Shown: positions 5,329-19,688 of the stretch, piece after piece
Layout of the letters: each line of letters opens with the position of its first letter
Position numbering within the stretch: position 1 is the stretch's first letter
Assembly: GCA_023382385.1 (NCBI GenBank)
Contig: JAHDVH010000002.1
Location: 572,219 to 636,218, forward strand
Reading direction: 5' to 3'
Source of the DNA: a bacterium
GTDB taxonomy: Bacteria > Electryoneota > RPQS01
Length of the DNA stretch: 64,000 bases
Notes under the pieces: model-generated
Seen by the model: the letters and a program-made list of their open reading frames with translations, nothing else
What the model was told of the DNA's origin: nothing
The model's database searches: none
Program-made: the position numbers and the translations under genes

Positions 5329-6531
5329 TTAATTGCTGTTTTCCAATAAGATAGCTTGTCCTTGTCCTACTCCGACGCAGAGGGAGGCAATTCCCCACCT
5401 CGTTCCGGCATCCCTCATCGAGCGTGCAAGGGTGCCTAAAATGCGTGCACCGGACATTCCGAGGGGGTGACCGATGGCAATGGCGCCTCCCTTTGGGTTC
5501 ACACGGTCAATGGGGGGATCGAGTTCTGCCAGCACGGCCAGCACCTGCACGGCGAACGCCTCGTTGACTTCCCAGAGACCAATTTCAAAACGTGTGAGGC
5601 CCGTTCGCTTGAGCAGTTTCTCGACGGCATTGACCGGCCCGATGCCCATAATTCGCGGATCAACACCTGCCGACGCCGTTCCGGCAATCCGGGCGAGCGG
5701 CTTCAACTTATGCTCTTTGACAAACTGCTCGGAACAAATCAAGAGTGCGGCGGCGCCATCGTTCAGCGAGGAGGAATTTCCCGCCGTGACCGTCCCGCCT
5801 TTGCGGAAGGCCGGCTTCAGAGCGGCAAGTTTTTCCAGAGTGGTGTCACCGCGGGGGCCTTCATCGCGGTCGACAAGCACTGCCTCGCCCTTTTTCTGCG
5901 GAAGTTCTACGGGAATGATTTCCTCTTTGAACAACCCGCGCTCGTGAGCTATGACAGACTTTTGATGTGACTCCAACGCGAATTGATCCTGAAGTTCGCG
6001 CGAGATATTCCATTTTTCATAGATATTCTCGGCGGTCTCCCCCATAGACTCGAGCGGAAACAGCTCTTTCATCCGAGGGTTGGGATAACGCCAGCCAAGG
6101 GTGGTATCCCATGCCGTCAGATTTCCGAAGGAAAAACCGTTCTCGAGCTTGGGCACACTGAACGGCGCACGGGTCATGGACTCCACGCCGCCTGCAATGT
6201 AACAATGTCCCTCACCTGATGCAATGGCTCGATAGGCACAAGCTGCGGCTTCCATTCCGGAGGCGCAGAGGCGATTGACGGTCACGGCGGGGACGGAGTC
6301 GGGAAATCCGGCCAACAGCACGGCCATACGAGCGACGTTACGGTTGTCCTCCCCTGCCTGATTCGCGCAGCCCATATAGACTTCATCCACAAGGCTGGGG
6401 TCAACGCCGGAGCGTTCGACGAGTTTCTTCAGAACGAGCGCCGCCATGTCGTCGGGCCGCACCGATTTCAAGATACCGTTATGCTTGCCCACCGGTGTGC
6501 GAAGGGCATCTACGAGAAAGACGTTTGTCAT
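5329..6531 (-). CDS. Thiolase (acetyl-CoA C-acyltransferase)
   Basis: 400 residues from ATG 6531 ([19 protein letters not shown]), the usual length. It catalyses the reversible thiolytic cleavage of 3-ketoacyl-CoA or condensation of acyl-CoAs, in fatty acid beta-oxidation or ketone and butyrate-type pathways. The nucleophile is Cys89 in [10 protein letters not shown]. His355 (GHPLGMSG) and Cys385 (CVGVGQG) complete the active site, and [10 protein letters not shown] is the thiolase signature. No other beta-oxidation gene is nearby, so I cannot say whether it acts in degradation or synthesis. It starts 49 bases after the SPFH gene and is likely co-transcribed with it. Confidence 0.93.
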
Positions 6532-6580
6532 GCAGAAGATTGGAGACTTGGAAGAGTTCTGATTCAAAATGTGTAGCTGG

Positions 6581-7582
6581 TTACGACTTGCCGTCTGCCT
6601 TCTGAAACGCCTTCGTAGCCGCAGCAACCGTACCCGCAAGATCCGCGAGGTTTGTAGGAATAATCATGGTATTGTTCGTCTTGGCAAGGTTGCCGAACTC
6701 CGCTACATACTGTTCAGCGACGCGCAAATTCAATGCGTCCATGCCGCCCGGCGCCTGCAGTGCTTGAGCGACTTCCCGAAGTCCGTTGGCGGTTGCCTTG
6801 GCGACCAGCTCGATTTGCTGGGCGCGGCCCAAGGCTTCATTGATTAGCTTGGCCTTCTCACCCTCGGATTCATTGATGAGCTTCATGCGGATTCCCTCTG
6901 AAACCGCAATGGCTTCCTGTCTGTTTCCTTCGGCGATGTTGATTGTTGACTGGCGCTCGCCTTCGGATTTCGCAATCGTCGCACGCTTCTCGCGCTCTGC
7001 CCGCATCTGCTTTTCCATCGCGTCTTGAATGGGCGCAGGTAAACGAATATCCTTTATCTCATAGCGGGTTACCTTGATTCCCCACGGTTCGGCCGCCTTG
7101 TCCAGAGCATCCACCACACCAGCGTTAATCGATTCACGTTCCTCGAATGTCCTGTCAAGCTCCAGTTTTCCGATTAAACTGCGGAGCGTCGTCTGCGCAA
7201 GCTGCTGCGTAGCGTAACCGTAGTTGTTGATCCCGTACGAAGCCTTAACCGGATCCACAACCTGCAAATACAGGATTCCGTCAACCGCCACGACCACGTT
7301 GTCGCGGGTAATGCAATTCTGCTCCGGAACGTCCAACGCAACTTCTTTCAGACTGTGGCGATAGCGAATGACGTCCACAAACGGAACCAGGATGTGAAAT
7401 CCTGCCTCAAGCGTTTGCGCGTACTTCCCCAACCGCTCAACGATATAGGCGCTCCGCTGCGGCACGACCACCGCTGTCTTAATGACCAAAATTAACGCCA
7501 AGAGGGCGATACTTCCGAACACAATTAATAACGCCATGTTTGCCTCGACGAATGTCGCACCGAGTACGTAAGATGATATCAT
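6581..7582 (-). CDS. SPFH/band-7 membrane protein (stomatin/QmcA-like)
   Basis: 333 residues with one N-terminal membrane segment (about 16-38, [20 protein letters not shown]). An SPFH domain follows ([40 protein letters not shown]), then a long Ala/Glu/Lys coiled coil with repeats of the type EGxRQxxINxAEG. Such proteins oligomerise into rings or microdomains in the membrane and interact with FtsH-type proteases. AGGAG lies six bases before the ATG at 7582. The gene directly upstream encodes its usual NfeD partner, nine bases away, which supports the assignment. Confidence 0.93.
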
Positions 7583-7591
7583 TTCTAACTC

Positions 7592-8038
7592 CTACACGCG
7601 CTCAACGCGCAAGGTTAAGTTCTCCCTGCCGACGATTCTCACCGATGCCCCCTTCTCAATCACTTCGTTCGCCGCAGCATGCCATTGTACACCGCGAAAC
7701 TCAATTTTCCCGCCTTCTCTCTTCGGGTCAATCTCTTCGCAGACGGTTGCAAGCCTGCCGATGAACTCCCATTCTTCGTTTTCCAATCCTTCACCCGACT
7801 TGCGGCCTTTGAATGTGCGGACCACGTACTTTCTCAATAGCAGCAATGAGAGTAACGATGCCGCCGTAAAGACCGCCAGCGATGCCGCAAGTGAATCAAT
7901 AACCCCGGCCCATAACAACGCCGCCGCCAGCCAGGCGCCTATGCCAAAGAACAGCAACACCACACCAGGCAACATTAACTCTCCCAAAACGAACGCCAGA
8001 CCCAAGAGAAACCAAAGTAACGGAGCATACTCGCTCAT
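7592..8038 (-). CDS. NfeD-like membrane protein
   Basis: 148 residues. N-terminal hydrophobic helices (LLWFLLGLAFVLGELMLPGV, then a second pair around 38-70) are followed by a C-terminal OB-fold-like domain (GRLATVCEEI, IEFRGVQWHAAAN, GASVRIVGRENLTLRVERV). This is the short, protease-less NfeD form that partners with SPFH proteins, and the SPFH gene follows nine bases downstream. GGGAGG precedes the ATG. It likely assembles with the SPFH ring in the cytoplasmic membrane. Confidence 0.9.
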   Translation of the reverse strand: MSEYAPLLWFLLGLAFVLGELMLPGVVLLFFGIGAWLAAALLWAGVIDSLAASLAVFTAASLLSLLLLRKYVVRTFKGRKSGEGLENEEWEFIGRLATVCEEIDPKREGGKIEFRGVQWHAAANEVIEKGASVRIVGRENLTLRVERV

Positions 8039-8075
8039 ACAAGCCTCCCTTTATTTTTGCAACCCGAATCCTCTT

Positions 8076-9191
8076 CTACCTCGGCAGCTTAGGCACGTCG
8101 TCTTTGAAGAGGACGACTTCGAGCAGATAGTCTTGCTTGTGTTTCAGAAAGTCTGCCATGCGGCGGCGGCCAAGCTTGATGCCTTCGCGCACTGCCTCGC
8201 GCGTGAAACTACGGGCGGAAGTGGAGAATTCTCCCATTTCAGATTTTGACGGACCGATGACGTATGTGTCAATCACCGCGTAGCGGCGGTGCAGGTCGGC
8301 AAACTGCTCGCAAACTTTCCGGTCGGGAGAGCGCGAAGCGAGGTCAAATTTCGCGGCAAGCTCGTTAATGAAAGCCGCACGTTCATAGTCTTCGCGATCC
8401 GTGTTGTCTACGAACAACTCCAGAGTGCGTTCGAGAATTGGCACCACTCGATTGAACGGTCCGGTTCCGGGCTGCGGGAACGCAGACGCCCGCAGAATGT
8501 GTAACTCCTGCTCCTGAACGGGCAGTCTCGCGAGGGCCTGCTCTTCACGCACCTTGCGGAATTGAGCAAAGACCTCGCGCAACGGGGTGACGTCTGTAAC
8601 GCCTCCGTCCACGTAGCCTTTAACCGGCGGAAACACAATCGGAATGGCCGCGGATGCCATAATCGCATCAATGGCCGTCATGCCGGGCAAAGGTTGATTG
8701 AGCGCAACCTCTTCAAATCTCCCGAACTGCAGGTTGACCATACCTACTTTGACTGCGTCCGGCCACTTCTTGTTGCCAAGATGTTTTTCCAACAGCCTGC
8801 GCAGAGGTTTGGTGTCGTAGACCGAGTCCGCTTTGCGCAAAATAGCAACTGCCAAGTCACCCGGCAAGTTCCTGCCTAACAGGCGGCGCGCACCTTCTGT
8901 CAGCACACCAGTGGTTTTGAGGGGGACATAGACAGACGCATTGTTGGAGATTTCATCGTCCCATAGTTCGGCCAGACGAACCGCGTTCTGCGGTTGTTGC
9001 TTTCTGCTGCTGGCTGGATGCCCATCCGGCGTGCCGAATAGTTGGGCGACATTCAGTCCTCCAACCGATACCCCGTATCCTCCGTCATAGGGCTGTCCAC
9101 CGCGGGCAAAATACTCGGCAAGCATTCCGGCTTGATAGGCACCGTACGCTCCGCCTCCCTGCATGGCGAGTAGTAGATAAGGGGAAGTCAT
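8076..9191 (-). CDS. Patatin-like phospholipase
   Basis: 371 residues. Near the N-terminus an oxyanion loop QGGGAYGAYQ (11-20) precedes the nucleophile motif GVSVG (Ser42), and the catalytic Asp195 lies in YVDGGVTD, giving the Ser-Asp dyad of patatins. It should hydrolyse acyl esters of phospholipids or related lipids. There is no signal peptide or membrane helix, so it is predicted to be cytoplasmic. The start at 9191 is chosen because the frame opens directly into the first beta strand; no strong ribosome site is visible. It lies between the methyltransferase and NfeD genes on the same strand. Confidence 0.88.
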   Translation of the reverse strand: MTSPYLLLAMQGGGAYGAYQAGMLAEYFARGGQPYDGGYGVSVGGLNVAQLFGTPDGHPASSRKQQPQNAVRLAELWDDEISNNASVYVPLKTTGVLTEGARRLLGRNLPGDLAVAILRKADSVYDTKPLRRLLEKHLGNKKWPDAVKVGMVNLQFGRFEEVALNQPLPGMTAIDAIMASAAIPIVFPPVKGYVDGGVTDVTPLREVFAQFRKVREEQALARLPVQEQELHILRASAFPQPGTGPFNRVVPILERTLELFVDNTDREDYERAAFINELAAKFDLASRSPDRKVCEQFADLHRRYAVIDTYVIGPSKSEMGEFSTSARSFTREAVREGIKLGRRRMADFLKHKQDYLLEVVLFKDDVPKLPR

Positions 9192-9248
9192 GGGGACGGG
9201 AGAAAGTCTGGCAGCAAGCGCGGGTAATATGAGAACGTTGTGTCGTGT

Positions 9249-10130
9249 CTAACGTATCGGTCGGTGGACCGCGTCGAGCGCGAATGTCATGGGAAGCTCA
9301 GGCTCGGATTCCGGCAGGCGGAACATGTCCGGTCCGGCTTCCACCATGTGCGGATAAGGCTTGAAGCAGCAGGTTGGGTATTCTTCGAACTGTTCGACCA
9401 GCAGACCTGCTCGAGTCAGCGCGCGGAACACGTCAGCGAGACTCCACTGCCATTCTCGCGTAGGAGCCTGCGGAATATAGCTTTGGTCGGCATAGTCCGG
9501 CATCGGTGGCATAACCACGCCCTCCTCGCAATGGAAGTATCCGAATTTCCGTTCCAGCTTGCCGTTTTCCCAGTCAAACATCATCAGCGCGGGATGAATT
9601 TCCACGATGACGAAGCGGCCATGAGGCGCGAGCAGTTTGGCGATAACACCGGCCCAAACATAGAGATCTGAGAGCCAGTTAATCACGCCGTAGCTCGTAA
9701 AAATAACATCGAACTGCTCATGAAGAACTTGATCGGCAAGCAGGACATCACACTCTACAAATTGGACTCGCTCCGCAACACCTGCTTTTGCAGCAAGTTC
9801 GCGCGCTGTGGCAATCGCGACCGGAGAAAAATCGAGGCCCACAACTTGTGCGGCACCGCGGCGAGCGATTTCAATGGTGGATTTGCCAAAATGACACTGC
9901 AAATGCAGGACGCGTTTCCCTGCAACATCGCCCAGCCAATCCAGCTCCAATCTGTCAAGCGCAGGTTTTCCGTTCAGAAAGCCCGGGACATCGTAGAAGT
10001 CGCTGGCCGCATGAATCGGCGTGACCTCGTCCCACCACGCGCGGTTAAGCAAATGAGCGGGGTGCGTCTTCTCGCCTGATGATCCTGCTAAATGATTATC
10101 TATGGTCATCTTAGGGTCTTGCATGGACAT
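9249..10130 (-). CDS. Class I SAM-dependent methyltransferase
   Basis: About 293 residues from ATG 10130; starts at 10124 or 10109 are equally possible, and no clear Shine-Dalgarno decides. Motif I of the Rossmann fold is VLHLQCHFGKSTI, with acidic residue GLDFS at the end of strand 2 and FDVIFTSYGVINW as motif II. The family is the common methyltransferase domain 11/25 group acting on small molecules; the substrate is unknown. The gene is transcribed away from the M29 aminopeptidase, so the 127 bases between them should contain promoters for both, though I saw no strong match. Confidence 0.85.
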   Translation of the reverse strand: MSMQDPKMTIDNHLAGSSGEKTHPAHLLNRAWWDEVTPIHAASDFYDVPGFLNGKPALDRLELDWLGDVAGKRVLHLQCHFGKSTIEIARRGAAQVVGLDFSPVAIATARELAAKAGVAERVQFVECDVLLADQVLHEQFDVIFTSYGVINWLSDLYVWAGVIAKLLAPHGRFVIVEIHPALMMFDWENGKLERKFGYFHCEEGVVMPPMPDYADQSYIPQAPTREWQWSLADVFRALTRAGLLVEQFEEYPTCCFKPYPHMVEAGPDMFRLPESEPELPMTFALDAVHRPIR

Positions 10131-10257
10131 AGAATGTACGCTTTTTCCGGCAGGGGTGCAAGTGGGGATGGGGTATGACGGCTTGCGAAACAGAGCGATT
10201 TTGAGTAATTTGTCACATACAATCCGAGGAACATAACCACAGGAGATTCTCACTTAG

Positions 10258-11382
10258 ATGTACGATCCTCGACACAAAAAACTTGCTGAAGTGCTGGTGA
10301 AGCACTCCACCAAAGTGAAGCCCGGCGACAAAGTGCTAATCGAGTGCTTTGACATTCCGCTTGAGTTCATCAGAGTGCTCTTGCAGGAAGTCTGCGATGC
10401 CGGGGGCCTGCCGGTGCTGGAATACAAGCACCAGTCCGTAATGCGCACTCTGATGCGTAACGCCACCGAAGAGCGCATGAAATTGATTGCCGACAGCGAA
10501 CTCTACCGGATGAAGCAAATGGACTGCTACATCGCGGTTCGCGGTGTTTTCAATGCCAAGGAATTGATCGATGTTCCCGGCGATCAGATGTCGCTGTATG
10601 AGAAGCATTGGTTGAAGCCTGTGCATCTCAAGCAGCGCGTCGAGAACACCCGCTGGGTGATTCTCAAATACCCGTCGCCGCAAATGGCGCAGATGGCCAA
10701 GATGAGCCACGAGGTGTTTGAGGACTTTTTCTACCACGTGTGCTGCGACGTGGATTGGAAGAAGGCCAGCGACGCGATGATTCCGGCGAAAGCCTTCATG
10801 GAAAAGACCGATAAGGTGCATATCAAGGGACCGGGAACCGATCTGCAATTCTCCATTAAGGGAATTCCGGCGGTGCCTTGCGGCGGAAGCTTTAACATCC
10901 CCGACCTGGAGATATTCACGGCGCCCGTGCGTAATTCTGTGAACGGCAAGATCAGCTACAACTCACCGTCCACCTACCGCGGTTTCACGTTTGAAAACGT
11001 CGTGCTCGAATTCAAGGACGGCAAGGTCGTCAATGCGACGTCCAACGACACAAAGCGTATCAACGAGATTTTCGACACGGATGAAGGTGCGCGTTACGTG
11101 GGCGAGTTCGCGCTTGGTTTTCATCCGTATGTGCTCGAACCGATGGACGACATTCTGTTTGACGAGAAAATCGCCGGTTCGTTCCATTTCACGCCCGGCC
11201 AGGCCTACGAGAAGGAAGCCGATAACGGCAATCGCAGCCAGATTCACTGGGATCTTGTATGTATTCAGCGTCCCGAGAAGGGCGGCGGCGAAATTTGGAT
11301 GGATGGGAAACTCATTCGCAAGGATGGCGTTTTCGTGCATGAAGCGTTCCTCGCAATGAATCCGGAGAATCTGGTGAAGTAG
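10258..11382 (+). CDS. M29-family (thermophilic-type) aminopeptidase
   Basis: 374 residues, the usual size for AmpS/AmpT-like leucyl aminopeptidases of family M29. These are metal-dependent dimers that remove N-terminal residues from peptides in the cytoplasm. The N-terminal half has the substrate-gate fold (KVKPGDKVLIECFDIPLEF). The C-terminal half holds the metal site (GTDLQFSIKG, GGSFNIPDLEIFTAPV, STYRGFTFENVVLEFKDGKV, ELGF/FALGFHPYV, SQIHWDLV). AGGAG lies 11 bases before the ATG. It is monocistronic, ended by a shared bidirectional terminator. Confidence 0.9.
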   Translation: MYDPRHKKLAEVLVKHSTKVKPGDKVLIECFDIPLEFIRVLLQEVCDAGGLPVLEYKHQSVMRTLMRNATEERMKLIADSELYRMKQMDCYIAVRGVFNAKELIDVPGDQMSLYEKHWLKPVHLKQRVENTRWVILKYPSPQMAQMAKMSHEVFEDFFYHVCCDVDWKKASDAMIPAKAFMEKTDKVHIKGPGTDLQFSIKGIPAVPCGGSFNIPDLEIFTAPVRNSVNGKISYNSPSTYRGFTFENVVLEFKDGKVVNATSNDTKRINEIFDTDEGARYVGEFALGFHPYVLEPMDDILFDEKIAGSFHFTPGQAYEKEADNGNRSQIHWDLVCIQRPEKGGGEIWMDGKLIRKDGVFVHEAFLAMNPENLVK

Positions 11383-11404
11383 CTACTTCACGCATGATTG
11401 TAAG

Positions 11405-11434
11405 AGAAAGCCCCGCTAAGTAGCGGGGCTTTCT
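11405..11434. terminator. Bidirectional terminator between convergent genes
   Basis: Perfect 13-bp stem AGAAAGCCCCGCT / AGCGGGGCTTTCT with loop AAGT. It lies 23 bases after the aminopeptidase and 18 bases after the stop of the convergent beta-helix gene. T-rich ends exist in both directions. Confidence 0.8.
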
Positions 11435-11451
11435 GGTAAGTGGAATCTAAC

Positions 11452-13059
11452 TTACTTCAACAGCAGCAGCTTTGTGACAACATGTGTTGTTGAGGAGGAT
11501 AGTTTCGCAAAGTACGTTCCGCTTGCGACATTGTCGGCACTGATTGTCAAGGTCTTGACGGACTGAATGCGGCCCGTGTATAACAACTTGACCAAGCGGC
11601 CATGCAGGTCGTAGAGTATAACACGGTACTCCCCGGGTTCTGCAACATGGATCGTCAGTGTCGTCGTTGCGTTAAACGGATTGGGAAAAACGGACAGCGA
11701 AAGTTCGGTCGGCAACTCGTTACGTTTATCTGCGCTCGTGCCTGATGTATCCGGAATCGAATCCGGCGGCGATGTCAGCCACGGAATAAACTCCACGCCG
11801 TTACCGACTTCAGTTCCTTGACCTTCGGGATTGAACACTGCGTGATACGGCCCCGTCGAATCCCCCCACCAGTTCTCACGCGCGTCAAAATAGGGTCCGG
11901 CCGAGAACGCAGCGATTCCGGGTGGCAGGAATTGATTGGCCCGAGCGAATACGGTGTCCAGAGGTGTGCTGATGGCTCGAACATCGGGAGAAGTAGCAGG
12001 TTGCAAATCGATGAACTTATTGTCTACCAGATCCACAGAACCGGAGATTTCAATGCCCGGTGCTGCGCCTCCAGTTGTCGTTCCGCCAACAAATTTGTTG
12101 CCGTAAACCTGTCCGAAGTAACCCGGCTGAGGGTCTTGGCAAATGAACTTTATCGCTGACGGTCCGGAGGCAATCCCTTCGCCTTGGTAGTTGTTAAACA
12201 TGTTTCCCCGAATACTTATCGGCGAACCGTCTTCACTTGGACAGCCCATGGCGACCTCCAGCAACGCAGGGCACCGGCCTATGTCTTCAAAGGTATTACT
12301 GTCAATCCTGCAATTACTTACCGGATTGATGTTCACCAAAGAGAATCCCCTGCCAGACGGGCCGAACCGACAAGTGCTCACTTCAATGTCGCTGCCGTGC
12401 AATTGGAGCAGATGTGTTCCTCCATCTGTATCACGGCGTAACGAGCTATTGCGAACAATTGAACCTGTGGAACAGAAGATCAGCCACCAACCCGATCCGC
12501 TAAAATCGCATTTGTTAACTCGAACTGTACCGAACGCGCCCGGATAGAGACAGAACCACAGGCATCCGTTAAAGCGACAGTGCTCCGCTTCGATAAGTTG
12601 CGCGGCAAGGACCGCTTGAGAGACTGAATCAAACACACAGTTGCGCAGGTACAAAGCTGATCCGGTATGATGTACTCCACCGACTCTCGTCGGCCAATCT
12701 GGTTGACGCATTTCGGGCCGGTTAAAAAAGACGAATTTCTCAATATGGACCGTATCACCCGGAAAAACTGCAACGGATGGTGTATCCGATCCTCTGGGAA
12801 TAGGATCAAGAACTGTTCTCAGCTCCGCAAGAGTGTCCGCAGGGTACCAGCCCGTCAAGGTCAACGAGTAGGCGGGGGCGATGAGAAATTCATGGTAGAC
12901 TCCGGGACTCACCCGCACTGTGTCGCCAGTTTGCGTCACATTCAGTGCATCTTGTATTGTCGCGTATTCTGAAGGGACTTCCAGGGTCTCGGCTTGGACC
13001 AAGGAAGAAGTTATGCAGATCACGATCAACAAGTTGGCCGCAACCACCAGATTTCGCAC
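11452..13059 (-). CDS. Secreted right-handed beta-helix protein with sorting domain (cassette copy 2)
   Basis: About 535 residues. I place the start at GTG 13059, which opens a good signal peptide (MRNLVVAANLLIVICITSSL) seven bases after the stop of the Cys-rich gene; frame-internal ATGs at 13107 and 13092 lie inside that gene. The body is a parallel beta-helix of the NosD/pectate-lyase type (VPSEYATIQDAL opening, repeated N-x-F and C-x-F turns). It ends in ENWWGDSTGPYH, a linker, and a sorting domain (VFPNPFNATT to TKLLLLK). Catalytic residues of a lyase are not recognisable; it may bind polysaccharide. It is paralogous to 13742-15343. Confidence 0.87.
   Translation of the reverse strand: MRNLVVAANLLIVICITSSLVQAETLEVPSEYATIQDALNVTQTGDTVRVSPGVYHEFLIAPAYSLTLTGWYPADTLAELRTVLDPIPRGSDTPSVAVFPGDTVHIEKFVFFNRPEMRQPDWPTRVGGVHHTGSALYLRNCVFDSVSQAVLAAQLIEAEHCRFNGCLWFCLYPGAFGTVRVNKCDFSGSGWWLIFCSTGSIVRNSSLRRDTDGGTHLLQLHGSDIEVSTCRFGPSGRGFSLVNINPVSNCRIDSNTFEDIGRCPALLEVAMGCPSEDGSPISIRGNMFNNYQGEGIASGPSAIKFICQDPQPGYFGQVYGNKFVGGTTTGGAAPGIEISGSVDLVDNKFIDLQPATSPDVRAISTPLDTVFARANQFLPPGIAAFSAGPYFDARENWWGDSTGPYHAVFNPEGQGTEVGNGVEFIPWLTSPPDSIPDTSGTSADKRNELPTELSLSVFPNPFNATTTLTIHVAEPGEYRVILYDLHGRLVKLLYTGRIQSVKTLTISADNVASGTYFAKLSSSTTHVVTKLLLLK
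11709..11889. repeat. Copy 2 of a conserved 181-bp block shared by the two beta-helix genes
   Basis: Aligned to 14002-14182 without gaps, I count 21 differences in 181 bases (about 88% identity). The block encodes the ENWWGDSTGPYH motif, the linker and the start of the NPF motif. The sorting domain immediately beyond it is very different between the copies. Confidence 0.8.
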
Positions 13060-13066
13060 GATTCCG

Positions 13067-13570
13067 TTAGGGTGTACAAGTTGTGACAGCATAGGAAATG
13101 CATGCATAGGCAGTGCAGTTTGCTTCACATGATTCACAGGATTGGACAGCAGGACAAGGAACCTTGCATACATACATGACGTATGTGGCGGTCGCCGACA
13201 AGCTTATCGAATTGGTGCAGACATAGCTGCAATTCCCAATATTACACTCGACTGTATGGCAGTTCTCCAGAAAGGTTTCGTTGCCGCCTTCAAGCTTATA
13301 CAAGTTTGCGCAGGATTGACACTTGCTGCAATCTCCCGTGCCACCTGAACATGTTGTGTGGGTTGTGAAGGTGTAATTGCCATCGCACAAAGGCGAGAAC
13401 TCAGTGCGCGTGCAATTAGCCGTTAGGTTTTCTCTGCAACCGGCAGTTGAGCACGTTGCATCGCTGAAACAAATACACTCTGTGCAGGCCCCAACTCCTA
13501 TCGGCATTCCCAGACACAACAAAACCGCAAGAGTCGTCATTGCGAAAGTCGTGGAAGGTGTTCTCTTCAT
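13067..13570 (-). CDS. Small Cys-rich secreted protein (cassette copy 2)
   Basis: 167 residues from ATG 13570, with GGAGG six bases upstream. A signal peptide (MKRTPSTTFAMTTLAVLLCL) is followed by a mature part with 22 Cys, starting ACTECIC. Many Cys sit in CxxC or C-x2/3-C spacing (CSKCQSC, CESCEANC), with a conserved YVMYVC segment near the C-terminus. I recognise no known domain. It is homologous to the proteins at 15340 and 35435, and all three lie directly upstream of a sorting-domain protein. The Cys content suggests a disulfide-stabilised or metal-binding secreted domain, but that is inference. It lacks a sorting domain of its own. Confidence 0.8.
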   Translation of the reverse strand: MKRTPSTTFAMTTLAVLLCLGMPIGVGACTECICFSDATCSTAGCRENLTANCTRTEFSPLCDGNYTFTTHTTCSGGTGDCSKCQSCANLYKLEGGNETFLENCHTVECNIGNCSYVCTNSISLSATATYVMYVCKVPCPAVQSCESCEANCTAYACISYAVTTCTP

Positions 13571-13741
13571 GGCTATCCTCCAAGTCATTCTGATTCCCCT
13601 GATGCTCTCTGTCATTTGGTGCACTACTCCTGATTTACAGCTTCAGGGTTTGCCGTCTAGCGTTTGCTGGGCATTCGTGGCAATATCGCGAACTATTTGC
13701 AACCAAGATGATTTCATCGCGTTGTCGGAGTTTTCCTACGG

Positions 13742-15343
13742 CTACTTCAGCAGGAGCAGTTTCGCTGCTTGTGGTGCGTGCGACGTCGTGAGCTTTGCGA
13801 AGTAGACTCCGCTTGCGTACTTGCTGCCGTCGAAGTGAACTTCGTGCAGTCCGGCTGTGAACAAATCGTCAGCGAGTGTCGCGATCCTTCTGCCCAATAT
13901 GTCGAACAATTCGAGTCGCACAATCTCGGACTTCCAAAGCGAGAACGAAATCGTTGTCGTGGGGTTGAATGGATTAGGAAACACAGACAACAAGAGCTCG
14001 CTCGGCAACTCGTTGCGTTCATCTGCGCTCGTGCCTGAAGTATCCGGAATCGAATCCGGCGGTGCAGTCAGCCACGGAATGAACTCCACGCCGTTACCAA
14101 CCTCGGTTCCCCGTCCCTCGGGATTGAACACCGAGTGATATGGTCCCGTCGAATCCCCCCACCAGTTCTCACGTGCATCGAACGGCATCCCATCAGTCTG
14201 CGCAGCCAGACCCGGCGGAAGAAACATATTGTCACGTGCCAGCGTAATGCCCGAGACGCTTCCAAACAACCACACGTCTCCCAAGTTCTCCGGGAAAAGA
14301 TCCGCGAACTGATTGTTCGCCAGTGAAACTCGGAGATTTGACCGGACTCCGGGTCCTATGGTTGAACTGCCATTCTGAAAAGAGTTGCTCTCGATATGTG
14401 CAATGTTCTCGTTAGTGCTTCCTTGGCAACTGATCTGTATCGCCGTTGTGCCAGATGCGGGTCCAACGCCATGGAAATCAACAAACTCATTGTTGAAAAT
14501 CGTAATCGGTGCATGTTCAAACATCTCATCGCAGTCCACGGATCCGTCAATCAATGAGTATGCACGTTCGATTCCCTCAAACGCGCAATTCTCAATCAAA
14601 CAGTTTCCTTGCGAGTATAAGCTGAGAACCGGAAAGGCGCTGTAACATGGTCCGAAGCGGCAGCCAGAGACTGTGATACTGCTTCCGAGGATTATCAGAA
14701 ATTCCGATTGTTGGCGATTGCAGAGAAATGTGCAGTTGCGCACTACTGAATTGCTGTAGCATTTCAGGAGGTGGGGGCCTTCGCCGTCAAAGGAGCAATC
14801 GCGGCAGTCCACCATGCCATAAACACTGGGTGTCACGCAATCACGATAACATCCTTCAAATATACAGTTCCTCAAGTAAAGTCTCGCGCCACCCCGCACT
14901 CCCCGCGAGACGGAATCAAAGCGGCAGTTCTCAAGAGAGAGCGCTGTTCCCATAAACCGCACTCCACCGGTGCGGGTCGCCGCACCATACTGACGATATT
15001 CGTGGCGATTGAAGAAAGCAAAGTTCCTGATTGCAACGGAGTCACCGCCGAACACCGCTGCCGAAGGCGTGTCCACTCCCGATGGAATCGGATCGAGTGT
15101 GGAGCGCAGAACGGCAAGTGTGTCCCCGGGATACCAGCCCGTGAGTGTCAAAGAGTGAGATGGGGCCAACAGAAACTCATGATAGACCCCCGGTGCCACA
15201 CGAATGGTGTCACTCGTCTGCGAAGAATCAAGCGCAATCTGGATCGTCGAATAGTCTGCAGGAACCTCCAATACGCGACCCAAAGAGTCTGCAGTCAGGA
15301 ACGCGACCCAAAAGAGCAGTGTTAAATAGGTTGCAGGCTTCAT
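13742..15343 (-). CDS. Secreted right-handed beta-helix protein with sorting domain (cassette copy 1)
   Basis: 533 residues. The ATG at 15343 overlaps the TGA of the Cys-rich gene (ATGA), so translation is coupled. Signal peptide MKPATYLTLLFWVAFLTADS, then VPADYSTIQIAL and a parallel beta-helix with many short strands and Cys (NCRFDS, NCIFEGC, DCSFDG). The ENWWGDSTGPYH motif leads into a linker and a canonical type A sorting domain (VFPNPFNPTT, DILGRRIATL, YASGVYFAKL, final Lys). Paralogous along its length to 11452-13059, but with a sorting domain of different sequence. Surface-exposed cargo is likely; enzymatic activity is not evident. Confidence 0.87.
   Translation of the reverse strand: MKPATYLTLLFWVAFLTADSLGRVLEVPADYSTIQIALDSSQTSDTIRVAPGVYHEFLLAPSHSLTLTGWYPGDTLAVLRSTLDPIPSGVDTPSAAVFGGDSVAIRNFAFFNRHEYRQYGAATRTGGVRFMGTALSLENCRFDSVSRGVRGGARLYLRNCIFEGCYRDCVTPSVYGMVDCRDCSFDGEGPHLLKCYSNSVVRNCTFLCNRQQSEFLIILGSSITVSGCRFGPCYSAFPVLSLYSQGNCLIENCAFEGIERAYSLIDGSVDCDEMFEHAPITIFNNEFVDFHGVGPASGTTAIQISCQGSTNENIAHIESNSFQNGSSTIGPGVRSNLRVSLANNQFADLFPENLGDVWLFGSVSGITLARDNMFLPPGLAAQTDGMPFDARENWWGDSTGPYHSVFNPEGRGTEVGNGVEFIPWLTAPPDSIPDTSGTSADERNELPSELLLSVFPNPFNPTTTISFSLWKSEIVRLELFDILGRRIATLADDLFTAGLHEVHFDGSKYASGVYFAKLTTSHAPQAAKLLLLK
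14002..14182. repeat. Copy 1 of the conserved 181-bp block
   Basis: Gap-free partner of 11709-11889, at a distance of 2293 bases. The surrounding beta-helix and sorting-domain sequence is clearly more diverged than the block. Confidence 0.8.
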
Positions 15344-15849
15344 GGCGTGCACGGCATGGTTGAAAGCCCATACGATAAGCAGCCGACCGCTACGCAGGAT
15401 GCATCACAATCCCCACAGTCCTCCAGACCTTCGTAGTCGGCACAGTATAGCTTGCAGACGTAAAGCACATAGGTGCTGCTCGAAGTAAGTGATACGGAAC
15501 TGCAAGTTGTTCCACATTCGTCAACTGAACAGAGATTCGTGTGGCAGTTAGCAACCCAGATTTCGTTCCCACCACTCACTTTAAAGAGGTTAACGCAACT
15601 ATAACACTTTCCGCAGAGCGTTTCACACGAGTTCACTGCTGCATAAAAGGCATACTCCCCGTCACACTCTGGCGTGAACTCCAGCCGCGTGCAATTCGCT
15701 GTCAGGTCAAGATCGCACTCATCGTTTGAGCAGGTGTTGTCCGTGACACAGATGCACTCCGTGCAGGCGCAGATCCTTGCCGGCAGTCCCAGACACAAAA
15801 AAACCGCAAGAGTCGTCATTGCGGCAGTCGTGAATGGTGTGTTCGTCAT
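15340..15849 (-). CDS. Small Cys-rich secreted protein (cassette copy 1)
   Basis: 169 residues from ATG 15849, preceded by AGAGG. The signal peptide (MTNTPFTTAAMTTLAVFLCL) is almost the same as in copy 2. The mature part again has 22 Cys: ACTECIC start, CGKCYSC, STYVLYVC, DCGDCDASC, and a C-terminal PCTP. It overlaps the beta-helix gene by four bases. A promoter-like site lies about 60-90 bases upstream, making this the first gene of the duplicated locus. No known family recognised; see the protein at 35435 for a more distant relative. Confidence 0.82.
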   Translation of the reverse strand: MTNTPFTTAAMTTLAVFLCLGLPARICACTECICVTDNTCSNDECDLDLTANCTRLEFTPECDGEYAFYAAVNSCETLCGKCYSCVNLFKVSGGNEIWVANCHTNLCSVDECGTTCSSVSLTSSSTYVLYVCKLYCADYEGLEDCGDCDASCVAVGCLSYGLSTMPCTP

Positions 15850-15909
15850 GGCAAACCTCTGAGTCTTCTTGTTTCCCCGATGCGGGCGGCCTCTTTGGTG
15901 CACGACCTA

Positions 15910-15938
15910 AATGTACGGCTTCAGGATTCCCTTGTCAA
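15910..15938 (-). promoter_or_regulatory. Promoter of the duplicated cassette locus, with palindrome over the -35 box
   Basis: TTGACA at 15938-15933, 17 bases, TACATT at 15915-15910 on the minus strand. The -35 box lies inside the perfect inverted repeat CCCTTG-A-CAAGGG, which could be an operator. The equivalent position before cassette copy 2 lacks 15 bases including this box. Confidence 0.6.
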
Positions 15939-16003
15939 GGGTTTGCGGTGCAGAAAAAGATGGACAATTTCTATACTCTCCTATTGGTCTGATTCTTCGC
16001 AAG

Positions 16004-17023
16004 TTAACGTCTGATTGTTGTCTCCCCGCGAATGAGCTTTTTCACGTGTTCCGATTGAAGCATGGAATGTGGGAATCCGAGTTCGGGCGCCGTCGCATCA
16101 TTCAAACGCTGCATTACCTCAATGGGAATTGTTACGTCCAGCGCACCAAGATTGTCTTCCAGCTGGGCGATCGTGCGCGCTCCGAGGATTGGACAAGTCA
16201 CGCCCTCCTGCTCCATGTTCCAGCGGATCGCAAGCTGTGACGGCGTGCAGCCAATCTCCAAAGCGCATTCCGTAACGACTTGTGCAATTCTAAGGCTGCG
16301 GTCATTCTCCTTTTGTGCGCTGATGTTGGGCCGCAGTCCGCTCTCGTTGTTCTGATACTTTCCCGTGAGCCAGCCGCCGCCCAGCACGGACCATGTCGTG
16401 ACTCCGATGCGAAACTCCCGCGCCATCGGAAGCAGATCGCGTTCAAGCGAGCGATCCATCAGACTGTATTTCAGTTGCAGCGAGGTGATAGGAGCTAAAT
16501 TCCGAAACTCCGCAATGACTTGCGCCTGTGCCACTTTCCATGCGGGCGTATCTGATATCCCGATATACAGTATCTTCCCCTGGGTGACCAGATCATCGAA
16601 TCCGCGCAGCACTTCTTCAATCGGAATGTTGCCCTCCCAAACATGCAGATAGTAGACGTCGATGTGGTCCGTTCGCAGCCGCTTCAAACTCTTCTCGACG
16701 GAGCGCATCATGTTTTTGCGGGAATTGCCGCCGGCGTTGGGATCTTTGGGATTGGACGAGAGCGAGTATTTCGTCGCGATGACCAACTCGTCACGGCGGA
16801 CCTCCATGAACTCGCCGAGATACGACTCGCTCGTGCCGTCGGTATAGTTGATGGCTGTATCGATGAAATTACCGCCGCGTTCAGTATAGAGTTCAAACAT
16901 GCGGCGCGAATCGTCCTTGTCCGCGCCCCAGCCCCAGTCTGTGCCGAACGTCATCGCCCCGAAGCACAGTGGTGACACCGCGAGTCCGCTGTGGCCGAGC
17001 AGCTTATAATTAGTCAATAGCAT
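16004..17023 (-). CDS. Aldo/keto reductase
   Basis: 339 residues, NAD(P)H-dependent oxidoreductase of the (beta/alpha)8 AKR fold. The catalytic tetrad is visible: Asp55 and Tyr60 in FIDTAINYTDG, Lys85 in ATKYSL and His127 in YYLHVWE. The C-terminal cofactor segment is present (CPILGARTIAQLEDNLGAL). It resembles the YajO/AKR11-13 subgroups reducing aldehydes or ketones; the substrate is unknown. The next gene upstream is another NAD(P)-binding oxidoreductase with a 7-base gap, so the two are probably one transcript. Confidence 0.92.
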   Translation of the reverse strand: MLLTNYKLLGHSGLAVSPLCFGAMTFGTDWGWGADKDDSRRMFELYTERGGNFIDTAINYTDGTSESYLGEFMEVRRDELVIATKYSLSSNPKDPNAGGNSRKNMMRSVEKSLKRLRTDHIDVYYLHVWEGNIPIEEVLRGFDDLVTQGKILYIGISDTPAWKVAQAQVIAEFRNLAPITSLQLKYSLMDRSLERDLLPMAREFRIGVTTWSVLGGGWLTGKYQNNESGLRPNISAQKENDRSLRIAQVVTECALEIGCTPSQLAIRWNMEQEGVTCPILGARTIAQLEDNLGALDVTIPIEVMQRLNDATAPELGFPHSMLQSEHVKKLIRGETTIRR

Positions 17024-17030
17024 GGTGTAA

Positions 17031-17642
17031 TTATCTCTTGCTTAGTATGAACGCAAACTCCCGTCCCTGTCCCTGTGTATAGGCAAGTTTAATCCAGAGC
17101 ATGGCCAGCGCTTCCAAATAGCGCGCCATCGCCAGCGGTCCGGCGTCAATCGTTTCAAAGCCAAGTTCATCCGAGAGGCGCATCACTTGCGTCTTGGCAA
17201 TCGCGTCCCCGCCGCACAGAAACATCACGGCATTGCCGTTCGGATAGCACGGATCGGCCATGTTGTTGAAACCCGTGCTGTTAAAGCACTTCACCACATG
17301 GGCATCTCGCTGCAGATTCTGCAGTTCCTCTGCGCCGGAAGAGTCTCCGCTCGCCAAAAGCCCTCCGCGACCCGGAGCTATCGGGTTCGTGGCATCTACG
17401 ATGACCTTGCCTGTTAGCCCCTGTGCTTCGCGCAGAATCTCAAGGGCCGCAGAATAAGGCGTCGCCAGCACGATGACATCGCCCCATGCCAACGCCTCGG
17501 GGATTGTTCGCTCATTCAACCGCTCTGCTCTATCTGCTGAGCGATCGGGCTTTCGTACACCAAACACAACCTCGTGGTTCGCCGTCCAGCGCTTCCCGAG
17601 CGTCCCTCCCACATTGCCTGAGCCAATGATTGAAATCTTCAT
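17031..17642 (-). CDS. NAD(P)-binding oxidoreductase (F420-dependent NADP reductase-like)
   Basis: 203 residues from ATG 17642 (MKISIIGSGNVGGTLG). The start is set by the dinucleotide-binding motif GSGNVG at residues 7-12, followed by VFGVRKPDR, the site that usually discriminates NADP. The arrangement VIVDATNPIAPG, HVVKCFNSTGFNNM and LGFETIDAGPL is typical of the YcnB/Fno-like family. Whether it uses F420 is unlikely to be decided from sequence; no F420 biosynthesis gene is in the window. Divergent from lemA. Confidence 0.85.
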   Translation of the reverse strand: MKISIIGSGNVGGTLGKRWTANHEVVFGVRKPDRSADRAERLNERTIPEALAWGDVIVLATPYSAALEILREAQGLTGKVIVDATNPIAPGRGGLLASGDSSGAEELQNLQRDAHVVKCFNSTGFNNMADPCYPNGNAVMFLCGGDAIAKTQVMRLSDELGFETIDAGPLAMARYLEALAMLWIKLAYTQGQGREFAFILSKR

Positions 17643-17756
17643 GGGAAATTGCCTGTTATCTGATTGGAAATGAGCTACTTCGTCCTCTTGGCGATAACAG
17701 CTCAATGCTTTTCCTCAAAGCTTGAACCACTTTATGAAAAGGAGATTTCCTGAGAT

Positions 17757-17785
17757 TTGCAACTGACCTCAAACCGCCGTAAATT
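17757..17785 (+). promoter_or_regulatory. Possible lemA promoter
   Basis: TTGCAA at 17757-17762, 17 bases, TAAATT at 17780-17785. The predicted start near 17792 gives a leader of about 27 bases before the lemA ATG. Confidence 0.4.
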
Positions 17786-17818
17786 CAAGGAGTGTTTAGC
17801 AACTAACGGGAGATCCGC

Positions 17819-18370
17819 ATGAGTTTTCTGATATTTCTGGGCATCGTGGCGGCACTGGTCATTTACATCATCGGCCTGTATAACGGCCTGGTGACGCTGC
17901 GCAATCAGGTCAAGGGCGCATGGTCACAGATAGACGTGCAGCTCAAGCGCCGGCACGACTTGATCCCCAATCTGGTCGAAGTTGTCAAGGATTATATGTC
18001 CTATGAGCAGGAGACGCTCGAAAAGGTGATCAAGGCCCGCAACTCGGCCGTCGCTGCGCAGGGTCCTGCCGCTGTTTCAGCCGCGGAGAATCAGGTCACC
18101 GGTGCGCTTCGGCAGCTTTTCGCTCTATTCGAAAACTATCCCGATCTGAAGGCCAATCAGAACGTGATGAAGTTGCAGGAGGAGTTGACAGCGACCGAGA
18201 ACAAGATCGCCTTCGCTCGGCAGTATTACAACGACACCGTGATGACCTACAATACCAAGCAGGAACTCTTCCCCGCCAATCTGATTGCCGCAAATCTCGG
18301 CTTCAAAAAGGAAGAGTATTATCAGGTGCCCGAAGAAGAGAAGCAGAATGTGAAGGTTGACTTGCGGTGA
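17819..18370 (+). CDS. lemA: LemA family protein
   Basis: 183 residues. One N-terminal membrane helix (LIFLGIVAALVIYIIGLYNG) precedes the LemA signature NQVKGAWSQIDVQLKRRHDLIPNLV and a four-helix soluble domain (ARQYYNDTVMTYNTKQELFP). LemA proteins are membrane-anchored with the domain probably outside the cytoplasm; their exact role is not settled. GGGAGAT precedes the ATG. The M48 protease starts at a GTG that overlaps the lemA stop (GTGA), a common gene pair. Confidence 0.93.
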   Translation: MSFLIFLGIVAALVIYIIGLYNGLVTLRNQVKGAWSQIDVQLKRRHDLIPNLVEVVKDYMSYEQETLEKVIKARNSAVAAQGPAAVSAAENQVTGALRQLFALFENYPDLKANQNVMKLQEELTATENKIAFARQYYNDTVMTYNTKQELFPANLIAANLGFKKEEYYQVPEEEKQNVKVDLR

Positions 18371-19463: not shown

Positions 19464-19688
19464 TAACTCCTGATAGGCGTTTCCCGTGAAAACGAGTCTT
19501 ATTCTTTCTATTGCCTTAAGGTCTTCGATGTCAATGGCCGCGAAGTTGCCGCGCTGTTAAACGAACGCGTTGCAGCAGGTGTGCACCGTGTGGACTTCGA
19601 TGGAAACGCGCTGTCTTCCGGAGTCTACTTCGCTCGGCTGCGCTCTGCGGCTCATGCTAAAATGACGCGGCTTGTATTGATCAAGTAG
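19464..19688 (+). pseudogene. Orphan sorting-domain remnant of a lost cargo protein
   Basis: The plus frame from a TAA near 19461 to TAG at 19688 has no start codon near its beginning. It encodes the second half of a type A sorting domain: LKVFDVNGREVAALL, then AGVHRVDFDGNALSSGVYF, then MTRLVLIK. The PNPF motif and all preceding domains are missing. The sequence between HtpX and this tail (19357-19463) shows no protein similarity I can recognise. A strong terminator follows 23 bases later, as for an intact gene, so this is most likely the tail left by a deletion. Confidence 0.75.

Follow-up and report, generated by a model that had tools for sequence, protein, structure and literature searches.

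Probable gene conversion in the linker of neighbouring type IX secretion cargo genes from an Electryoneota genome, and a terminator-like hairpin in the signal-peptide codons of their partner genes

How can two neighbouring genes that have diverged along most of their length be nearly alike in one short stretch? The question is raised by two genes for type IX secretion system (T9SS) cargo proteins on the minus strand of a 64,000-nucleotide (nt) stretch of DNA, hereafter the window, from a bacterium of the Electryoneota (GenBank assembly GCA_023382385.1, contig JAHDVH010000002.1, positions 572,219 to 636,218; G000 in our comparison). Copy 1 (A, the downstream unit; 11452-13173 as listed from its first ATG) and copy 2 (B, the upstream unit; 13742-15343) both match Beta_helix and Por_Secre_tail above the Pfam cut-offs, with a linker between the beta-helix body and the C-terminal sorting domain, or tail. 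An original prediction, made from the letters alone, proposed that this linker had recently been homogenised and that the C-terminal module had been replaced. Because module trees conflict and synonymous identity is limited to an island, we consider it highly probable that the linker of A and B was overwritten by gene conversion between neighbours, while the proposed recent tail replacement found no support.

The shared block lies at 11709-11889 in A and at 14002-14182 in B, both on the minus strand. Its 181 bases align free of gaps with 21 differences, the very figures first estimated, and 17 of these fall at third, 3 at first and 1 at second codon positions. Identity in the flanks is 56% on the tail side (11600-11708) and 43% on the body side (11890-12000), and a repeat search widens the match around this core to 230 nt at 85% (11660-11889 in A, 13953-14182 in B). 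The synonymous difference (pS) between A and B amounts to 0.45 for the block and 0.70 for the sorting domain, and is saturated, at 0.80, for the body, so that the likeness does reach synonymous positions and the adjacent sorting domains are indeed more diverged, as had been claimed; both sorting-domain sequences quoted in that claim are present in the open reading frames. Where A and B carry the same amino acid, their codons also agree at 41 of 63 block sites, 55 of 161 body sites and 11 of 25 tail sites. The difference between block and body is significant (Fisher p 2.5e-5) and was reached in 0 of 20000 segment permutations; by both measures, the likeness of the block is not due to chance. 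In an AlphaFold model of A (7 sequences, mean confidence score, pLDDT, 73), the block falls in the linker between the beta-helix and the beta-rich tail, where confidence is low at residues 386-449 and 451-454.

Relatives were sought in 61 genomes, one per species, 11 of which had a match at an E-value of 1e-20 or better. The nearest full-length relatives are found in G001, labelled as the same genus. Here, a tandem pair (a1, b1) adjoins the same methyltransferase, patatin-like and M29-type peptidase genes (named by reading, not by family search), and the shared neighbours place a1/b1 at the same locus as A/B. G001 also carries a second tandem pair, I1 and I2, at another locus, and dispersed paralogues occur in both genomes (C and D in G000; c1 and d1 in G001). 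One of these, D (L076, G000:C2:487500-494500), looks decayed, with an in-frame stop in the beta-helix gene, a broken frame in the small gene that accompanies it and CTG at the expected start. Block pS is low in the other tandem pairs as well (0.37 for a1-b1, 0.11 for I1-I2) and 0.63-0.95 in all other pairs listed, orthologues such as A with a1 included, while body pS is 0.75-0.87 across all pairs. For ordinary orthologues of the two genomes, pS is 0.67-0.75 (5 genes). Between the genomes, the block (0.79) is as diverged as the body (0.80), which argues that it is under no nucleotide constraint of its own. Thus, paralogues within a genome are closer than orthologues in one segment only, and that segment is not accounted for by nucleotide constraint. 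The permutation controls A-a1, B-b1, B-C and A-b1 gave 6322 to 18218 of 20000, although for A-b1 the Fisher comparison of block and body is nominally significant (p 0.017).

Sliding windows of 50 nt revealed that identity rises near the same D-A-x-x-NWWG motif in all three tandem pairs, rather than the uniform divergence that the original prediction had named as evidence against itself. At the 3' side, the islands end at the tail start in A-B, at the stop codon in a1-b1 (with one dip to 56%) and some 60 nt short of the stop codon in I1-I2.

Trees built for each module separately conflict with one another. The body protein tree supports B+C (97/97) and rejects both A+B (approximately unbiased test, p-AU 4.6e-5) and a1+b1 (0.036). 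The block DNA tree, in contrast, unites A+B (95/93), a1+b1 (92/98) and I1+I2 (97/97), and rejects A+a1, A+a1+c1 and B+C (p 0.022). In the tail protein tree, B+C+c1 (99/97) and a1+b1 (95/98) are supported, whereas A+B (1.9e-4) and A+a1+c1 (0.0017) are rejected. The linker is hence the sole module of B that leaves its usual company with C, as linker gene conversion predicts. The homogenisation part of the original prediction is upheld by these trees.

Taken together, the cargo bodies and sorting domains of A and B would be old paralogues with saturated synonymous sites, and conversion of the linker would have occurred after the lineage split from the same-genus relative. Homologous recombination may have been seeded in the conserved D-A-x-x-NWWG stretch, the bodies, at about 50% identity, probably being too unlike to recombine. 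Several observations weigh against this interpretation. At about 67-79 codons the block is short, and its synonymous divergence (dS) is still about 0.6-0.7, from which it follows that the event was not very recent. In a segment test, the alike stretch begins 17 (a1-b1) and 39 (I1-I2) columns ahead of the block start, so the common boundary is only approximate. In the body tree, A+a1+c1 is weak (67/94), A+a1 stands outside the best tree yet is not rejected (p 0.23), and a clade of I1+I2 is not rejected either (p 0.106), while the tail tree rejects A+a1 (p 0.013) and the orthology of A and a1 is weak. Moreover, the comparison draws on just two close genomes. Also at this locus, the A-like copy is the downstream one in G000 and the upstream one in G001 (L072 versus 11452-15903 in the window), an arrangement that leans on the same weak orthology and hints at turnover of units within the tandem array.

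An alternative that yields the same island pattern is a recent tandem duplication followed by overwriting, from another locus, of the body of one copy, and in the case of B of its tail too, so that only the ends stayed alike. The bodies of A and B, and likewise those of a1 and b1, do belong to different lineages. Nevertheless, none of the relatives compared emerged as a candidate donor of a body: B comes closest to C, at 57% amino acid identity, and I2 to Gx, at 59% and a pS of 0.86, though block pS between I1 and I2 is 0.11. For A-B, this scenario furthermore requires overwriting in two tracts with precisely the linker left untouched, and we regard it as improbable, although a donor might lie outside the genome.

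Still less credit can be given to a recent modular swap, in which copy 2, next to its homogenised linker, acquired the sorting domain of another cargo gene in place of its own. The two tails are of different kinds: that of A (residues 495-569; 11467-11691, minus strand) is of the GEYxVxLYDxxGR type common in the cargo family, and that of B (residues 457-531; 13760-13984, minus strand) is of a type in common with paralogue C, in line with the rejection of A+B in the tail tree. A change of tail group also happened at least once in the family, as the body of c1 groups with A and a1 whereas its tail rejects that group, which suggests an older tail exchange in the c1 lineage. The tail of B, though, accompanies that of C just as the bodies do. 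A donor search with the B tail among the 126 tails of the genome found no recent donor; the 12 matches listed are all at 44-49% amino acid identity, the best being C1:889424 at 49%. A search of this kind had been suggested as a check in the original prediction. On these groupings, the tails of A and B are judged to differ because they are old paralogues. As for purifying selection, on the protein or the nucleotide level, keeping the linker alike with no recombination, invariant linker residues (NWWGDSTGP, EVGNGV) indicate that amino acid conservation is partly selective, but with block pS between genomes like that of the body and with orthologues and dispersed paralogues near saturation in the block, we give this explanation very little weight indeed.

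The tails themselves scored 36.7 and 32.5 bits with Por_Secre_tail PF18962 (cut-off 27) and 38.4 and 32.8 bits with TIGR04183 (cut-off 23) in the two cargo genes, and the model of A as a whole gave weak matches (E about 0.01) to the solved T9SS C-terminal domains 8glk_D and 8qb1_A. The cargo starts are signal-peptide-like by reading. PorU (C1:294209-297517, 650 bits) and SprA (C2:117351-123344) are both encoded in G000 with scores over their cut-offs; with this machinery present, the tails of A and B are probably real secretion tags. Elsewhere in the window, at 19497-19676 on the plus strand, a 73-residue open frame has the look of a stranded tail, being an orphan sorting domain with no passenger domain ahead and a partial Por_Secre_tail match (model positions 21-74) under the curated cut-off.

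We were curious to know whether other neighbouring cargo genes display such islands. The last approximately 310 codons of all 126 G000 genes with a sorting-domain match were compared in 7875 pairs, an island being defined as a 3'-end match of 90 nt or more with an identity of 80% or higher, and neighbours as consecutive same-strand genes within 5 kb. Only 6 pairs exceeded the threshold, 5 of them among the 28 neighbour pairs and 1 among the remaining 7847, an excess whose Fisher value (2e-12) is merely indicative since the pairs are non-independent. When the count is restricted to pairs whose upstream regions are homologous, 3 of 10 neighbours qualify versus 1 of 285 non-neighbours. In C4:110376/113459, the last three 50-codon windows are at 1.00, 59 of 60 downstream bases agree and the likeness drops upstream. 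In C2:251816/253840, the last two windows are at 0.96-0.99 and earlier ones at 7-51% amino acid identity, and in C2:870330/872831 the last window is at 0.93 with 55 of 60 downstream bases the same. The latter pair and C2:528198/530039, another of the six, lack detectable homology just upstream at E 1e-6. The sixth pair links contig C5 to the short contig C7 and exhibits a gradient in the tail, identical first 18 residues and unlike downstream sequence; its members (L185 and L186, G000:C5:183106 and C7:7419) are large cargo genes with diverged bodies. Among 18 neighbour pairs (35 genes) hand-picked in G008 and G001 from at least 150 rows, two pairs of G008 passed (L195, 88% over 315 nt; L196, 86% over 273 nt), and no non-neighbour pair among these 35 genes did. 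Matches of 100% at L190 and L193 turned out to be overlapping adjacent open frames and were dropped as artefacts. At other loci of the source genome, the tail becomes homogenised rather than swapped.

Homogenisation anchored at the 3' end thus appears to recur in some other neighbouring cargo genes of the source and related genomes, where the sorting domain would often be covered in full and, in two pairs, the terminator-like sequence beyond it as well. Against a general rule stand the 23 of 28 neighbour pairs in G000 and the 16 of 18 in G008/G001 that remain under the threshold, and 5 of these 18 (L189, L197, L198, one L201 pair and L202) are less alike in the tail than in the body.

A second island, which the original prediction had missed together with the two-gene nature of the repeated unit, lies at the 5' end of the gene preceding each cargo gene. 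Each tandem unit consists of a small gene for a Cys-rich protein (13067-13570 upstream of A, 15340-15849 upstream of B, both on the minus strand) followed by the beta-helix cargo gene. In 12 of the 13 small genes aligned (those of A, B, C, D, a1, b1, c1, d1, F, Gx, I1 and I2), the signal-peptide codons contain CCGCAA-N9-TTGCGG or a near variant, then a T-tract, at a constant distance from the start. In the unit of B, this terminator-like hairpin with its T7 tract is located at 15797-15824 (minus strand), the stem ending at nt 46 of the gene; in that of A (13518-13545, minus strand) it is weaker, with an outer U-G pair and the T-tract TTTTGTT. Between the genomes, pS in the hairpin region amounts to 0.27 for codons 9-18 and to 0.39 for codons 2-22, compared with 0.80 in the bodies, and at sites with the same residue the same codon is used in 170 of 195 cases versus 927 of 2553 in the bodies. 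This conservation across genomes implies that, unlike the linker, the 5' island is explained mainly by constraint rather than by conversion.

A G+C-rich stem followed by a T-tract is what an intrinsic terminator has, and a strict form of it was found in 10 of the 12 genes and a looser one in A and c1. Judging from these sequence features, the odds are about even that the hairpin is an intrinsic terminator escaped only by well-translated transcripts. Of its 72 pairing cells, 98.6% are paired, and single folding of 7 of the 12 hairpins gave z-scores from -1.89 (A) to -3.66. A covariance model was run on the 11 family genomes, with 150 candidates scored per genome; among the candidates scored, exactly the 12 matched strongly (E up to 3e-18; next 1.9e-5), and these belong to 18 related small genes listed (8 in G000, 10 in G001). 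The next match, in G002, was set aside; by reading, it maps to the signal peptide of a PDZ-type protein. Several points count against a terminator. Small gene E, the thirteenth aligned, and other more distant ones lack the hairpin, A and c1 fail its strict definition, and A, a1 and I1 have interrupted T-tracts. Covariation is not significant (78 of 500 shuffles reach the score), with one compensatory cell and half of the pairs invariant, and a terminator scan with loops limited to 8 did not list the hairpin.

Somewhat less favoured, at a little under even, is the possibility that the hairpin is a by-product of signal-peptide codons, another nucleotide element (start-site accessibility, pausing or a DNA motif) or in part a relic of conversion. 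Signal peptides rich in Phe and Leu are naturally T-rich, which speaks for a codon by-product, and the identical loops of A and B hint at conversion there. On the other hand, the codons GCG, GTT and TTG at positions 15, 16 and 18 are fixed in 12 of 12 genes despite body usages of 0.33, 0.28 and 0.26, and recoding the 12 signal peptides with family codon usage leads one to expect 0.62 strict hairpins versus the 10 observed. Conversion is disfavoured by 5' identity beyond the tandem pairs (0.83 in c1-Gx and 0.87 in Gx-I2 versus 0.83 in A-B), and a same-shaped intergenic hairpin with T-tracts in G001 (L091), an ordinary terminator by reading, also favours the terminator. If functional, the hairpin would be an unusual attenuator hidden within signal-peptide codons. 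Translation-mediated attenuation is described for Streptococcus gallolyticus pil1, where translating ribosomes open a stem-loop terminator that lies close to the 5' end of surface-protein transcripts (PMC3894217); pil1 has a separate, repeat-bearing leader peptide upstream, whereas the hairpin here lies inside the gene's own signal-peptide codons and its function is inferred.

T9SS sorting domains are commonly viewed as inherited together with their cargo. More tentatively, and with considerable doubt, we propose that neighbouring T9SS cargo genes of this bacterial family repeatedly overwrite each other's secretion ends, making tandem loci bookended cassettes; in the subfamily of A and B, the 5' bookend would also be a terminator tying expression of the two-gene unit to translation. 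The ends overwritten would comprise the linker and the sorting domain, in some cases also the signal peptide or the terminator-like sequence downstream. Passenger domains would meanwhile evolve freely, and alike ends would keep tandem cassettes open to passenger exchange. If neighbours do overwrite tails, tail phylogenies would be distorted and tandem cargo loci would be sites for passenger exchange between ready-made secretion ends.

A divergent middle with a concerted 3' segment is known from elsewhere. Helicobacter pylori babA/babB and homA/homB are described as paralogous surface genes that diverge in the middle but are alike at their ends; their 3' segment clusters by strain, the concerted evolution being ascribed to intragenomic gene conversion (PMC4552749, PMC2795765). 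A and B resemble them in being paralogous surface-protein genes with one concerted segment near the 3' end, and differ in that the segment is a T9SS linker or sorting domain, that the pairs are adjacent, that a Cys-rich partner gene belongs to the unit, that the window pair is converted, on our reading, in the linker only, and that no chimeras at the population level were seen among the genomes compared, one per species. For the C-terminal domain (CTD) family of Porphyromonas gingivalis, domain rearrangement and allelic exchange are reported from comparisons between strains (PMC5266723); there too recombination shapes T9SS cargo genes, whereas here the C-terminal end appears to be copied between neighbouring paralogues. 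In the open-licence literature, as judged by titles and the starts of abstracts, no account of 3'-end homogenisation of neighbouring T9SS cargo genes was found.

Some features of the tandem locus deserve mention. By reading, the real start of A is probably the ATG at 13092 or the GTG at 13059. The ATG of B overlaps the stop of its small gene (ATGA), which suggests translational coupling. A sigma-70-like promoter candidate (TTGACA-17-TACATT, 15910-15938, minus strand) lies upstream of unit B but is weak, 5 such sites occurring in the region versus 4.0 expected, and an Rfam search over 11000-16500 returned two matches, each under its gathering score. Neither Cys-rich protein has a Pfam or NCBIfam match. 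The predicted fold is beta-rich (mean pLDDT 82), and a search of it against the PDB gave only weak matches (template modelling score at most 0.44 by query length among the best 50 matches) that point to no function. A related Cys-rich small gene (L043, G000:C5:72077-72580) precedes a different gene, subtilisin-like by reading, and from this context the Cys-rich small protein may partner more than a single kind of secreted protein.

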